From contig NZ_AP027130.1 in assembly GCF_027925145.1 (NCBI RefSeq), positions 496,001-560,000 on the forward strand: DNA of 64,000 bases. Reading direction: 5' to 3'. How positions within the stretch are numbered: position 1 is the first letter of the stretch; every line of letters starts with the position of its first letter. This document shows positions 694 to 8,378 of this stretch, in pieces. This stretch comes from Thermodesulfomicrobium sp. WS (lineage in GTDB: Bacteria; Desulfobacterota; Desulfovibrionia; Desulfovibrionales; Desulfomicrobiaceae). Both the position numbers and the translations under genes were made by a program. The notes beneath the pieces are model-generated. The model saw only the letters and a program-made list of their open reading frames with translations. It searched no databases and was not told where the DNA came from.

Positions 694-2679
694 ATGCCTC
701 AGATTCCTGTGAAAGATCCTGTAAAAGGTTTGCCCCTGGCCGAGCCGGAGCTCGTGGAACTGGAAACCGATGCCCTTATCGTGGGCGGTGGTATGGGCGC
801 TTGCGGCGTGGCTTACGAGGCCTGCCGCTGGGCGGACAAGCACGGTGTGCGTGTGCTTTTGGTGGATAAGGCTGCCCTGGAGCGTTCCGGCGCGGTGGCC
901 CAGGGTCTGTCCGCCATCAATACCTACCTCGGCAAGAACGAGCCCGATGACTACGTGCGCATGGTGCGTACCGACCTCATGGGCCTGGTGCGTGAAGACC
1001 TGATCTTCGACCTGGGCCGCCACGTGGATGATTCCGTCCATCTGTTCGAAGAGTGGGGCCTGCCCTGCTGGATCAAGAAGGACGGCAAGAACCTGGACGG
1101 CGCCGAGGCCAAGAAACAGGGCTTTTCGCTGCGCAAGGGCGACGAGCCGGTGCGCTCCGGCCGTTGGCAGATCATGATCAACGGTGAGTCCTACAAGTGC
1201 ATCGTGGCCGAGGCCGCCAAGAAGGCCCTGGGCGAAGATCGCTACATGGAGCGTGTCTTCATCGTGAAGCTGCTCTTGGACGCCAAGGTGGAGAACCGCA
1301 TCGCTGGCGCCGTGGGCTTCTCGGTGCGCGAGAACAAAGTGTATGTCATCAAGGCCAACGCCATCTGCTGCGCCTGCGGCGGTGCGGTGAACGTGTACCG
1401 TCCCCGCTCCACGGGTGAAGGTATGGGCCGCGCCTGGTACCCGGTGTGGAACGCTGGCTCCACCTACACCATGTGTGCGCAGGTGGGCGCTGAGATGACC
1501 ATGATGGAAAACCGTTTCGTCCCGGCTCGCTTCAAGGACGGTTACGGTCCGGTGGGTGCCTGGTTCTTGCTCTTCAAGGCCAAGGCCACCAACGCCAAGG
1601 GCGAGGACTACTGCGTCACCAACCGCGCCATGCTCAAGCCCTACGAGGATCGCGGCTACGCCAAGGGTCAGGTCATCCCCACCTGTCTGCGCAACCACAT
1701 GATGCTGCGCGAGATGCGTGAAGGCCGTGGTCCCATCTACATGGACACCGCCACTGCCCTGCAGACCACCTTCAAAGAGCTGACTCCCAAGGAGCAGAAG
1801 CACCTGGAGTCCGAAGCGTGGGAAGACTTCCTCGACATGTGCGTGGGCCAGGCCAACCTGTGGGCTTGTATGAACATCAAGCCCGAGGAGCGCGGCTCCG
1901 AGATCATGCCCACCGAGCCCTATCTGCTGGGTTCCCACTCCGGCTGCTGCGGCATCTGGGTGTCGGGTCCGGACGAGGAATGGGTGCCGGAAGAGTACAA
2001 GGTCCGTGCGGACAACGGCAAGGTGTACAACCGTATGACCACGGTCAACGGCCTGTTCACCTGCGCTGACGGCGTGGGCGCTTCTGGTCACAAGTTCTCC
2101 TCGGGTTCGCACGCCGAGGGCCGTATCGTGGGCAAGCAGATGGTGCGCTGGTGCGTGGACCACAAGGACTTCAAGCCCACCCTGCAGCTCGATGCCGAAG
2201 CCCTGAAGAAAGAGATCTATCAGCCCTGGTACACCTACGAGCAGTACAAGGGTGCTTCCACGGATCCGGTGGTCAACCCCAACTACATTACCCCGCACAA
2301 CTTCATGATGCGCCTCATCAAGGCCACCGATGAATACGGCGGCGGCGTGGCCACTCTGTACACCACCTCCGAGAAGCTGCTCGACACCGGTTTCGCCCTG
2401 CTCGACATGCTCGAGGAAGATTCCAAGAAGCTGGCTGCTCGCGACCTGCACGAGCTTTTGCGCTGCTGGGAACAGTACCACCGTCTGTGGACCGTGCGCC
2501 TGCACATGCAGCACATCCGCTTCCGTCAGGAAAGCCGTTACCCCGGCTTCTACTATCGTGCCGACTTCATGGGCATCGATGACTCCAAGTGGAAGTGCTT
2601 CGTCAACTCCAAGTACGATCCGAAGACCGGTGAGACCACTGTCTTCAAGAGACACTACTACCAGATCATCCCTGACTAG
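694..2679 (+). CDS. aprA: Adenylylsulfate reductase, alpha subunit
   Basis: The FAD subunit of dissimilatory APS reductase, 661 residues, the usual length for the family. It belongs to the fumarate reductase/succinate dehydrogenase flavoprotein superfamily. An N-terminal dinucleotide-binding motif (ALIVGGGMGACG, about residues 26-37) is followed by the flavin and APS-binding domains. Conserved AprA blocks such as NAICCACGGAVNVYRP and SGSHAEGRIVGKQ are present. A strong AGGAGG precedes the ATG. It forms a heterodimer with AprB and receives electrons from the Qmo complex encoded just downstream. A strong terminator follows the stop by 15 bp, so qmo is probably separately promoted. Confidence 0.97.
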   Translation: MPQIPVKDPVKGLPLAEPELVELETDALIVGGGMGACGVAYEACRWADKHGVRVLLVDKAALERSGAVAQGLSAINTYLGKNEPDDYVRMVRTDLMGLVREDLIFDLGRHVDDSVHLFEEWGLPCWIKKDGKNLDGAEAKKQGFSLRKGDEPVRSGRWQIMINGESYKCIVAEAAKKALGEDRYMERVFIVKLLLDAKVENRIAGAVGFSVRENKVYVIKANAICCACGGAVNVYRPRSTGEGMGRAWYPVWNAGSTYTMCAQVGAEMTMMENRFVPARFKDGYGPVGAWFLLFKAKATNAKGEDYCVTNRAMLKPYEDRGYAKGQVIPTCLRNHMMLREMREGRGPIYMDTATALQTTFKELTPKEQKHLESEAWEDFLDMCVGQANLWACMNIKPEERGSEIMPTEPYLLGSHSGCCGIWVSGPDEEWVPEEYKVRADNGKVYNRMTTVNGLFTCADGVGASGHKFSSGSHAEGRIVGKQMVRWCVDHKDFKPTLQLDAEALKKEIYQPWYTYEQYKGASTDPVVNPNYITPHNFMMRLIKATDEYGGGVATLYTTSEKLLDTGFALLDMLEEDSKKLAARDLHELLRCWEQYHRLWTVRLHMQHIRFRQESRYPGFYYRADFMGIDDSKWKCFVNSKYDPKTGETTVFKRHYYQIIPD

Positions 2680-2694
2680 TTCATGGGCCACGAA

Positions 2695-2723
2695 AGGCTG
2701 CGGGGCTCGCCCCGCAGCCTTTT
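2695..2723 (+). terminator. Intrinsic terminator after aprA
   Basis: An 11-bp perfect GC-rich stem (AGGCTGCGGGG at 2695-2705 with CCCCGCAGCCT at 2710-2720), a 4-nt loop and a short T-run (2720-2723, then CTTTC). It lies 15 bp after the aprA stop codon. Confidence 0.85.
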
Positions 2724-2733
2724 CTTTCGCGGC

Positions 2734-2805
2734 AATAGAATGGTCTCTGTATGATCTGTAACGGATCGTGAAGGTTGTTATAGATCATGCTTGGGCCATT
2801 CTATT
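2734..2805 (+). promoter_or_regulatory. Long hairpin in the aprA-qmoA gap
   Basis: Two nested 12-bp stems, each perfect if one G-U pair is allowed: 2734-2745 with 2794-2805, and 2751-2762 with 2777-2788. They are separated by a symmetrical 5x5 internal loop, and two further G-U pairs shorten the apical loop to 10 nt. It sits between the aprA terminator and the qmoA ribosome binding site. TATAGAT at 2779-2785 could serve as a -10 element, so the element may be a transcribed leader structure or a large operator. I do not recognise a known RNA family. Confidence 0.6.
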
Positions 2806-2843
2806 CATTTTATGGCCTTCAACGTTGTCCTGGGAGGAATGTA

Positions 2844-4085
2844 ATGGCGAATACCAGCATACTTGTCATCGGTGGCGGGTTCGCGGGGATGACCGCCGCC
2901 CTGGAAGCCGCGGAGCTGGGCCACGAAGTCTATCTCGTGGAAAAGTCTCCGTACTTGGGCGGACGGGTCATGCAACTCAATAAGTACTTTCCCAAGCTTT
3001 GTCCGCCATCCTGTGGTCTGGAGATCCAGTACCAGCGCATCAAAAACAATCCGCTGGTCAAATTTTTCACGTTGGCTGAAGTGGTCAAGGTAGAAGGCTC
3101 CAAAGGCAACTATACGGCTACGGTACGGGTGCGCCCGCGCCACACGGCCCCCAATAGTGTGGACTTGAGCGCCGTGGCCAAGGGGCTGTCCGGCGAGGTC
3201 GTGAGTGAATTTGAATTCGGCCTGGCCCGCCGCAAGGGCCTGTATCTGGACGTACCCTTTGCGTTCCCGCAGCGGTACGTGGTGGACAAGGCGTGTCTGA
3301 CGGATGCGGACAAGAGCGCGTTGTCGGCGTGTCCGCATGTCAACTTGACGGAAGAGGAGCGCCTCATCCCGCTCCAGGTGGGCGCCATTGTGGTGGCCAC
3401 AGGTTGGCAGCCCTATGATGTCACCCGTCTCACCAATCTCGGTGCCGGAACGGTGAAGAACTGCATTTCCAACATGCAGATGGAGCGTCTGGCGTCCCCC
3501 TACGGGCCGACCCAGGGCAAGATTCTGCGTCCCTCGGATGGGCGTGCGCCGAAGAAGGTCGCGTTCGTGCAGTGCGCAGGCTCCCGGGATGAAAATCATC
3601 TGTCGTTCTGCTCGTACATCTGCTGCATGGCATCGCTCAAGCAGGCGCAGTACGTCCGCGAGCAGTATCCGGATGCGGATATCACGGTGTTTTACATCGA
3701 CCTGCGCACCCCTGGCCGCTATGAGTCCTTTGCCGAAAAAGTCTTGGCGGATCCCAAGATCCACGCCATCAAAGGCAAGGTGGCGGCCGTGGCCCAGGAT
3801 AAGGCAGGGGATGACGTCTGGGTGACGGTGGAAGATGCCGTGACCGGCGCCAAGTCGGTGGAGCGCTTTGATTTGGTGGTCTTGGCCACGGGCATGCAGC
3901 CGAGCCTTGCCGCCCAGAAACTGCCTCTGGACGTGACGGTGGACGAGGAAGGGTTCATTGTGAACGGTGAGGACCAAGGGATTTTCGTGGCTGGCTGCGC
4001 CAAACAGCCGTTGGATGTCATGAAGACGGCCCAGTCCGCCACGGCTGCAGCCATGAAGGCGATCCAGACGGTGAGAGGGAGGTAG
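2844..4085 (+). CDS. qmoA: QmoA, FAD subunit of quinone-interacting oxidoreductase
   Basis: A flavoprotein subunit of QmoABC, the membrane complex that carries electrons from menaquinol to APS reductase. The 413-residue protein resembles HdrA, with an N-terminal FAD motif (VIGGGFAGMTAALEAAELG) and an HdrA-type central region including CPPSCGLE and the CAGSRDENHLSFCSYICC cysteine block. The start at 2844 is chosen because GGGAGG lies just upstream; an in-frame ATG at 2787 would lie inside the long hairpin and has no ribosome binding site. qmoB starts 3 bp after the stop. Confidence 0.95.
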   Translation: MANTSILVIGGGFAGMTAALEAAELGHEVYLVEKSPYLGGRVMQLNKYFPKLCPPSCGLEIQYQRIKNNPLVKFFTLAEVVKVEGSKGNYTATVRVRPRHTAPNSVDLSAVAKGLSGEVVSEFEFGLARRKGLYLDVPFAFPQRYVVDKACLTDADKSALSACPHVNLTEEERLIPLQVGAIVVATGWQPYDVTRLTNLGAGTVKNCISNMQMERLASPYGPTQGKILRPSDGRAPKKVAFVQCAGSRDENHLSFCSYICCMASLKQAQYVREQYPDADITVFYIDLRTPGRYESFAEKVLADPKIHAIKGKVAAVAQDKAGDDVWVTVEDAVTGAKSVERFDLVVLATGMQPSLAAQKLPLDVTVDEEGFIVNGEDQGIFVAGCAKQPLDVMKTAQSATAAAMKAIQTVRGR

Positions 4086-6386: not shown

Positions 6387-7613
6387 ATGTCCAAAACGGT
6401 ACGCATCGAACCCAATGTGCAATTCGTCAAGGAATTGCAGGAGGTGGGAGGCGAGGACCTCAAGAAGTGCTACCAGTGCGCCACGTGCTCGGTAGCCTGC
6501 CCCATGTCTCCTGCGGATAACCCCTACCCGCGCAAAGAGATGATCTGGGCGCAGTGGGGGCTCAAAGACAAGCTCTTGAACGACATCGACATCTGGCTGT
6601 GCCACAATTGCGGCACCTGTTCGGATCTGTGTCCTCGCGGGGCCAAACCCGGTGACCTGCTCGCTGCCTTGCGCAACATGACCTACCGCAAGCTGGTGCC
6701 GCCGGCCATCATCGGGGAGTGGATGAGCTCGCCCAAGCATCTGCCGATCCTGGCAGGCATCCCGGCGGTCATCTTCGGCATCGTCTGGATGATCCGCGCC
6801 GCCATGGTGGGGAGCTTCTTCCCGGTGACGGAGGAAGGCAAGATCGTGTACGGGAACCTCTTCCCCGGCGATTTCACCATCGATCCCATCTTCGGCCTCA
6901 CCGCCCTTTTTGTGCTCATCTGCTTTGCCGTGGGGGTCCGCAACCTTATCGAGGGGTTCAAGAGCACGGTGACGGACACCTTTGTCATCGGCTACAAAAA
7001 GCCCACCATCAAAGAGGCCATCATCGATGCCATCAAGTATGAGGTGCTCCAGCATACGCGCTTCAAAGATTGCATCGACGAGCCTGCGGATGAGGAGCGG
7101 GTCAAAGGCCATTTGCTCTTGTTCTACGGCTTTGTGGCCTGCTTCATCGTCACCTCCATCGTGGCCGTGGCCCATTGGGGCGGTAAGATCGTGCACTTCT
7201 TGGAGCCCATTGGGCACACCCCCATGCCTTTGTGGAGCCCGGTGAAGATCCTGGCCAATGTGGGGGCAGTGCTGCTTTTGACCGGTCTTACCTTGCTTAC
7301 CCGCCGTCGCCTCAATCTCGAGCGTCGCAAGAGCCGCTCCAACTACTATGATTGGTATCTCTTGGGGGTGATCTGGGCGGTGACGCTGACAGGTATTGGC
7401 TCGGAGGTGTTCCGTCTGGCCGCCGTGGCCCCGCTTGCCTTCTTCACCTACTACCTGCATCTGGTGAGCATCTTCATGCTCATTGCCTATCTGCCGTGGT
7501 CCAAGCTGGGCCATTTGGTGTACCGGACCACCGCGCTCATCTATGCGCGGTACGTGGGCCGTCTGCCCATTGGCGAAAAACTCATCGAGGACGAGAAAGT
7601 CTTTGTCATTTAA
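6387..7613 (+). CDS. qmoC: QmoC, Fe-S/membrane subunit
   Basis: The membrane anchor and quinol-oxidising subunit of Qmo, 408 residues. The N-terminal third is HdrC-like with two [4Fe-4S] motifs (CYQCATCSVACP and CHNCGTCSDLCPRGA). The remainder is a NarI/HdrE-like cytochrome b domain with about six hydrophobic segments between residues 115 and 375; histidines inside or beside these are candidate haem ligands. AGGAGGCTTGC precedes the ATG. It follows qmoB by 9 bp and is followed by qmoD, the standard order in Desulfovibrio. Confidence 0.95.
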   Translation: MSKTVRIEPNVQFVKELQEVGGEDLKKCYQCATCSVACPMSPADNPYPRKEMIWAQWGLKDKLLNDIDIWLCHNCGTCSDLCPRGAKPGDLLAALRNMTYRKLVPPAIIGEWMSSPKHLPILAGIPAVIFGIVWMIRAAMVGSFFPVTEEGKIVYGNLFPGDFTIDPIFGLTALFVLICFAVGVRNLIEGFKSTVTDTFVIGYKKPTIKEAIIDAIKYEVLQHTRFKDCIDEPADEERVKGHLLLFYGFVACFIVTSIVAVAHWGGKIVHFLEPIGHTPMPLWSPVKILANVGAVLLLTGLTLLTRRRLNLERRKSRSNYYDWYLLGVIWAVTLTGIGSEVFRLAAVAPLAFFTYYLHLVSIFMLIAYLPWSKLGHLVYRTTALIYARYVGRLPIGEKLIEDEKVFVI

Positions 7614-7631: not shown

Positions 7632-8300
7632 ATGTCGGAAGCCCGGAAGATTTTTCCCATGGAGACCTTTGTGGCCTACATCAAAGGCGAGGCCAATGAT
7701 CAGGTGAATGAAATGCTGAGCTACCTCGTGCAGCGGGAGCTCGCTGCCGAGTTCGCTCCCTTTGCCGCGGCTCTGGCCAAGGCGTGGATTTATGAGCAGC
7801 ACCCGGAACTCACCAAGATGTCCAAGGGACAGATGGTGGAGCTGGGTCAGTCGGTGTCGGTGGCGCCCATGCCGGTGCGCGCCAAGGCTGAAGTGGACGC
7901 GGTGTTCGAGAAGCTGGAAGGCTTTGCCGCCAAGATTGCTGCTGCGGAGGCGAAAATTGCGGATCTGCAGTCCACGGTAGCTGCCAAGGACGCCGAGATC
8001 GCCAAGCTGCAGGCCAAGGTGAAGGAGTACGAAAGCGAGAAGAAGGGCGAGGCCGAGAAGCTGTTCGTCACTACCGAGGCGCGGGTTGCTGAGTTCACCG
8101 CCAAGCTGGAAGAGCTCCTCAAGCAGGTGGAAGAAGTGAAGAAGACCGGTGTGGTCGTGGCCGGCGTGGCTGGCGCGGCGGCTGCCGCGGCTCCGGCTGC
8201 AGGCGGCGAGGCCGCGGGTGCTCCGGCCCAGGCCGAGGCTGGTTCGGACTTCGGTTTCTCCGGCGGTGCTGCGGACCCCTTCTCCGACGCCAACTGGTAA
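7632..8300 (+). CDS. qmoD: QmoD-like coiled-coil protein
   Basis: A 222-residue cytoplasmic protein placed as the fourth qmo gene in Desulfovibrio, where the homologue is needed for normal growth on sulfate; its biochemical role is not settled. Residues 1-75 form a helical domain. Residues 85-170 form a long coiled coil rich in Ala, Lys and Glu (for example KIAAAEAKIADLQS). The tail is low-complexity Ala/Gly/Pro, ending in acidic and aromatic residues (SDFGFSGG to DPFSDANW). AGAGGAGG precedes the ATG, 18 bp after qmoC. It could be an assembly factor or adaptor between AprBA and Qmo; this is inference. Confidence 0.8.
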   Translation: MSEARKIFPMETFVAYIKGEANDQVNEMLSYLVQRELAAEFAPFAAALAKAWIYEQHPELTKMSKGQMVELGQSVSVAPMPVRAKAEVDAVFEKLEGFAAKIAAAEAKIADLQSTVAAKDAEIAKLQAKVKEYESEKKGEAEKLFVTTEARVAEFTAKLEELLKQVEEVKKTGVVVAGVAGAAAAAAPAAGGEAAGAPAQAEAGSDFGFSGGAADPFSDANW

Positions 8301-8342
8301 AAAATGGGCTCCCTGCCAACGGGCGCGGGAGCCTTGGAAAAA

Positions 8343-8378
8343 AATCCGCACTCTTTTCCGAGGGTGCGGATTTTTTTT
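8343..8378 (+). terminator. Intrinsic terminator after qmoD
   Basis: The stem AATCCGCAC with GTGCGGATT is followed by a run of eight T residues (8371-8378). The left side is preceded by AAAAA, so it can also end the convergent minus-strand transcript whose last gene stops at 8377. Confidence 0.85.

Follow-up and report, generated by a model that had tools for sequence, protein, structure and literature searches.

In the 64,000-nt stretch of the Thermodesulfomicrobium sp. WS genome analysed here (the window), the genes of APS reductase, aprBA, are followed on the same strand by qmoABC (Table 1). The names of aprB, aprA and qmoC rest on NCBIfam matches, and those of qmoA and qmoB on position and HdrA-like matches. 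In dissimilatory sulfate reduction, AprBA and QmoABC act one after the other as partners; to our knowledge, the mechanism that matches their amounts has not been worked out. The gap between the aprA stop codon and qmoA contains two hairpins, a GC-rich one and, behind it, a long rod whose 3' end lies 38 nt upstream of qmoA. At the other end of the operon, a 222-aa coiled-coil ORF with weak SMC-like and DUF4407 matches only (7632-8300) follows qmoC, presumably where D. vulgaris has a hypothetical gene behind its qmoC. Further downstream, a strong inverted repeat with A and T tracts (AAAAAAATCCGCACTCT/AGGGTGCGGATTTTTTT, 8338-8377) is likely a two-way terminator after the qmo operon.

Table 1. Features at the apr-qmo junction, in window coordinates
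Feature	Position	Strand	Basis
aprA, APS reductase alpha subunit	694-2679	+	NCBIfam TIGR02061, 1109.5 bits, above cut-off
Terminator-like GC-rich hairpin behind aprA, U-rich tail	2693-2722	+	14-nt perfect arms; terminator-like scan match
Conserved RNA hairpin, 31 bp	2734-2805	+	Inverted arms, fold, covariance model
Lower stem, 5' half; near-invariant GGTCT at 2742-2746	2734-2746	+	Alignment A1 columns 11-15, G and G invariant in 31/31
Upper stem and loop; genera differ in sequence but retain the pairing	2749-2790	+	A1 columns 18-31 with 61-74
Lower stem, 3' half; GGGCC at 2793-2797 pairs with 2742-2746; conserved U.G wobble 2744.2795	2793-2805	+	Alignment
ATGGCC, possible alternative partner of 3' arm GGCCAT (2794-2799); lineage-limited	2812-2817	+	Shuffle comparison
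Shine-Dalgarno-like GGGAGGA of qmoA	2832-2838	+	Read from sequence
qmoA, ATG at 2844	2844-4085	+	HdrA-like flavoprotein; precedes NCBIfam-confirmed qmoC; relatives 98-51% identical
qmoC	6387-7613		NCBIfam NF038018

Folded as RNA, the second hairpin is a single rod of 31 bp. Its arms (2734-2762 and 2777-2805) are 29 nt each and 79% complementary without counting G.U pairs; the lower stem (2734-2746 with 2793-2805) is followed by a 2x2 internal loop (2747-2748/2791-2792), the upper stem, which contains one bulge, and a 5-nt loop. A first-pass annotation of this DNA had described an almost continuous stem of about 30 bp, with two arms separated by equal 5-nt bulges, placed after the aprA terminator and before qmoA and far above chance. 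Stem and placement were borne out, but the bulges become the 2x2 internal loop once G.U pairs are counted. The excess over chance is also confirmed, as the 101-nt context 2720-2820 folds at -42.8 kcal/mol, compared with a mean of -19.9 (sd 3.0) for dinucleotide shuffles (z -7.6; 0/200 equally good). It is the top rod of the window (26 vs 24 for the next) when each unpaired stem base is subtracted from the number of pairs; by pair count without the penalty for unpaired bases, 673 of 15,980 80-nt segments reach at least 27 pairs and the rod is not singled out. The hairpin is absent from the list of an inverted-repeat scan of the whole window, which was not used for ranking.

The genome (G000, one contig of 2.36 Mb) contains one copy of the hairpin by sequence and one by covariance model, and a plasmid search gave no match. 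The first-pass annotation had proposed a search for copies, and a repetitive or mobile palindrome is rejected on the basis of this single locus. A known RNA family was rejected, since no Rfam 15 family came to or near its gathering score; there were two matches, both sub-threshold (24.5 bits against a gathering score of 44, and 17.6 against 50) and located mainly on the GC hairpin.

A terminator scan of the gap reported 2702-2721, within the GC hairpin, as its sole match. This hairpin was detected by script after aprA in 33 of 36 genera, with a U-run of at least 4 in the tail in 21, a T-rich tail in 8 and no U-run in 4. The spacer between GC hairpin and rod is 1-2 nt in four genera (g5, g15, g17 and g21), which leaves little room for a promoter between them, and a scan for sigma-70-like promoters at 2400-3100 found no site. 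A folded sense RNA at the rod would have to originate upstream, and read-through from apr would be its simplest source. Because the GC hairpin lies directly upstream, the rod, initially described as part of a qmo leader, is more probably an element between cistrons into which transcription from apr would continue. In Desulfobacterales (L081-L091), the apr terminator sequence is nearly invariant in most loci (CCTCCAGGTGTC...GACACCTGGAGGTTTTTATTA), which is unusual for a terminator stem.

The rod could itself act as a second, reinforcing intrinsic terminator with a short U tract (CCAUUUU) behind it. Many genera have UUUU directly behind the stem, and it is kept in g5 and g15, where its 5' partner is U, not A; yet the tract is short and usually paired with a 5' A tract, the scan picks the GC hairpin only, and two terminators in a row would leave qmo without an evident promoter. 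With 22-34 bp the rod is also long for a terminator. An intrinsic terminator would be a short GC-rich stem with a U-run immediately behind it, which does not describe this rod of 31 bp. We consider this function unlikely, in line with the original impression that the hairpin is not terminator-like.

Conservation of the pairing was analysed in a seed alignment (A1) of 31 rows. These were selected visually, by presence of the motif, among 80 contig loci and 60 fetched loci, omitting loci of already sampled genera and loci without a recognisable hairpin; a structure-aware model supplied 38 non-seed loci. In A1, 89.1% of 834 cells are paired, a percentage that, like all pairing percentages here, is biased upward by the by-eye seed and the structure-aware retrieval. 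Both sides have changed at 22 of 29 pairs, the covariation score is 0.504 vs 0.245 in shuffles, and pairing falls to 29.7-46.2% when the 3' partners are slid by 1-3 columns. The covariation that the first-pass annotation proposed to look for in the apr-qmo gaps of other Desulfovibrionales is thus strong, and the pairing is conserved.

The ratio of G.U to A.C, synteny and the out-of-order test described below are less affected by the selection bias. G.U exceeds A.C by 127:19 in the seed and by 142:9 in the 38 non-seed loci, compared with 117-135 : 36-68 in slid registers. Such an excess indicates selection on the qmo-sense RNA and is expected of a folded RNA, not of a DNA palindrome. Although the hairpin is palindromic at the DNA level, a DNA element, whether operator, cruciform or mobile palindrome, is highly improbable given the G.U over A.C asymmetry, the covarying upper stem, the single copy and the scores of covariance model R1, which gives 61.8 bits on the sense (+) strand vs 23 on the other. 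The protein-binding operator suggested earlier is likewise argued against by the G.U bias and the covariation; a transcription factor operator was also rejected because the half-site spacing is set by a variable, covarying stem and is not short and fixed.

Stem length is 22-34 bp (median 27) in 36/36 genera, and the apical loop varies from 3 to 14 nt. A stem length that is held while loops vary is what one would predict if function depended on the amount of double helix. The 36 folded genera all give an essentially unbranched rod with a variable loop, whereas a riboswitch would have a conserved junction or pocket with an expression platform; a riboswitch was rejected on this ground. The early suggestion of a leader RNA that senses something was right in proposing an RNA element, which covariation and G.U bias support, but the plain rod without a junction lends no support to sensing.

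Within the rod, a central block (GGUCU/RGGCC) is nearly fixed and includes a conserved U.G wobble. Its first two G-C pairs are invariant in 31/31 seed rows, and the third pair is U.G in 21/31 seed rows, otherwise C-G or U-A, and U.G in 14/14 genera of the non-seed set. In g13 and g34, which have 22-bp stems, the block lies near the helix middle. In genus g7 (f4), two of three loci retain the 3' arm GGTTTAGGC despite a drifted 5' arm, and the 3' arm may thus have a constraint of its own. It could serve to mark the zone of the predicted cleavage, or to bind an additional factor. Its near-invariant pairs and the retained 3' arm of g7 would also suit a binding site for a dedicated RNA-binding protein or trans-acting RNA that reads GGUCU/RGGCC with its wobble and regulates qmoABC translation or stability. 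This function is possible but rather doubtful, as the genome has a single site, the distance to qmoA is highly variable and rods free of the block fill the same gap in other genera and orders.

The 5' arm (2740-2754 in the window) opens with a start codon in 25/31 rows of A1, with a stop within six codons in 24/31, often as AUG-GUC-UAA or UGA. A mini-ORF (AUG-GUC-stop) was rejected: no Shine-Dalgarno is visible, the start codon is replaced by ACG in five rows and by TCG in one, and the codons fall on bases that are paired and inherited.

Alternative pairings of the arms were also considered. The 3' arm GGCCAU has two potential partners, the 5' arm and a downstream AUGGCC, and a change between them could expose or hide a site. 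A downstream GGCC is found in 16/36 genera, compared with 4.0 expected from shuffles, and AUGGCC itself in g1, g3, g19 and g46, but the downstream partner is absent from most genera, and in only 9/36 is the duplex matched by at most 5% of shuffles. For the 12-nt core, pairing energies are -10.6 to -18.7 kcal/mol with the 5' arm vs -3.0 to -12.0 downstream. Such a switch is very unlikely for the element as a whole; a three-way switch with the downstream GGCC was rejected as real in some genera but not general. Upstream of the rod, five loci of genus g22 (L223, L224, L231, L232 and L235) have a second complement of the 5' arm, CAGACC before GGUCUG, and two loci of g34 (L225 and L236) have CGGCCGTTTG before CAAACGG. 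These are possibly another alternative pairing.

The model found the element in 168 of 297 Desulfovibrionales genomes, representing 40 of 55 genera; among these matches, two from genus g12, G189 (E 0.03) and G220 (E 0.006), are probably due to chance. QmoA is encoded at E 1e-80 or better in 167 of the 168 genomes, with no QmoA at this limit in G077. All 39 in-order matches with fetched surroundings have aprA before and qmoA after the rod, at about 33 to 176 nt from qmoA. Near copies in genera g1 and g3 (77-99% identity over the 166-base query) precede qmoA wherever the gap was read. More distant gaps in the order, obtained through QmoA, have a common base, AAAAUGGUCU...RGGCCAUUUU, closing a genus-specific upper stem. 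A large insertion occurs at the rod tip in genus g10 (L219 and L270), where base and block are unchanged.

No model match was found in 73 of 240 QmoA-bearing genomes. Among the genera missed by the model, g11, g16, g18 and g53 have rods of 24-29 bp with other sequence, of which those in one of two g11 loci, g16 and g18 are no better than the best of 40 shuffles; in this check, the automatic recognition of the aprA end missed the g7 loci and one g15 locus, and it had missed several loci among the gaps obtained through QmoA. In g12 and g36, no rod in the gaps stands out clearly. Together with the genomes that have no match, this indicates that the element is dispensable there.

The element sequence is absent outside Desulfovibrionales. 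A phylum-wide model search of 395 genomes gave seven matches, six in Desulfovibrionales and a weak 45-nt one with neither aprA nor qmoA nearby. Long rods of unrelated sequence, scored at 17 or more and with the terminator removed where found, occur in 15 of 27 out-of-order apr-qmo gaps; of 100 control gaps, taken from three genomes, 5 contain one (Fisher p 1.3e-8). The 27 gaps derive from 34 out-of-order loci, of which five have no upstream ORF in reach and one has too short a gap, leaving 28 that were tested; L110, with no aprA-like tail, is left out. Compared with other gaps of the same loci, the numbers are 15/27 vs 1/14 (p 0.003), after exclusion of three of 17 'other' gaps that are the apr-qmo gap itself. 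The enrichment is suggestive, not settled, as the 27 loci are related to each other and mostly from MAGs, gap lengths differ and the controls are small.

With moderate confidence, we interpret the element as a cis-acting intercistronic RNA stem that separates the aprBA mRNA from the qmoABC mRNA by cleavage and/or end protection. Transcription from the apr promoter would in part continue beyond the GC hairpin, and the extended RNA would fold into the rod just 3' of it. The rod would then be cut by a double-strand-specific nuclease, most likely of the RNase III type. Trimming from the 3' side would halt at the GC hairpin, leaving a stable and abundant aprBA mRNA, and qmoABC would continue as a separate, less abundant mRNA, with a presumed effect on the AprBA to Qmo ratio. 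This interpretation draws on the length of the rod, at least two helical turns, its sense strand, its place at the junction of an enzyme pair and a membrane complex, and the unrelated rods in the same place elsewhere. Of the functions proposed by the first-pass annotation, a processing site fits best: the RNA element is established in structure, strand, place and conservation, and cleavage is the part that we infer.

RNase III is a candidate because its gene is present in the same genome (G000:C1:719711-720358) and the stem length fits. RNase III substrates are helices of about two turns, about 20 bp or more, a length reached by the rods of all 36 genera. An RNase III site is not known to need as much sequence specificity as the near-fixed block shows. 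A generic RNase III sequence box was rejected, since the processing stems of 16S and 23S rRNA in this genome were searched for the block and lack it. The block thus does not mark RNase III sites in general here, which leaves room for a second, sequence-reading factor alongside the proposed cleavage.

Intercistronic hairpins that set segment levels are a known kind of element. New with respect to Rfam and the literature searched are the apr-qmo element itself, its order-wide covariation, its fixed block and the recurrence of rods in the apr-qmo gap, none of which was described there before; D. vulgaris transcript ends may already exist in published data. A D. vulgaris transcript map was reportedly made by Price et al. 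in 2011. In a term search, qmo is named in neither PMC545781 nor PMC11124144. Being only about 70 nt long and open to mutation, the hairpin provides a compact, testable handle in genera that can be cultured, such as Desulfomicrobium. In addition, the observations suggest that an operon junction may be conserved for double-strandedness and not for sequence; such junctions would escape RNA searches that take sequence similarity as their starting point. A broader and distinctly speculative idea, which we think improbable, is that a long double-stranded stem at the apr-qmo junction is a general need of sulfate respirers, having arisen repeatedly from unrelated sequences in several orders, and that it is sequence-marked in Desulfovibrionales, where a dedicated factor would read the block and tune the AprBA to Qmo ratio.

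The RNase III processing stems of rRNA operons are long, nearly perfect double-stranded RNAs of two helical turns or more. The apr-qmo rod resembles them as a long, nearly perfect double-stranded RNA, but it lies between protein genes and its block is missing from the 16S and 23S stems. Internal terminators are reported to set operon stoichiometry by partial termination after the first, abundant product (PMC9045158); such a mechanism would fit the GC hairpin at 2693-2722 but not the long rod behind it. In the cip-cel operon of Clostridium cellulolyticum, intercistronic stem-loops (SRPS), most of them without a U-run, are reported to set the segment ratio, and their described action is the kind of mRNA separation, by cleavage and/or end protection, proposed here for the rod (PMC4423207). 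The apr-qmo element is similar in being an intercistronic stem-loop in an operon for partner proteins. The genes aprA and qmoA flank it in each in-order locus with fetched surroundings, and their co-transcription is predicted from spacer length and missing U-runs. Unlike the cip-cel stem-loops, it is one hairpin at one junction throughout an order, with strong covariation, a near-invariant internal block and a predicted cleavage.
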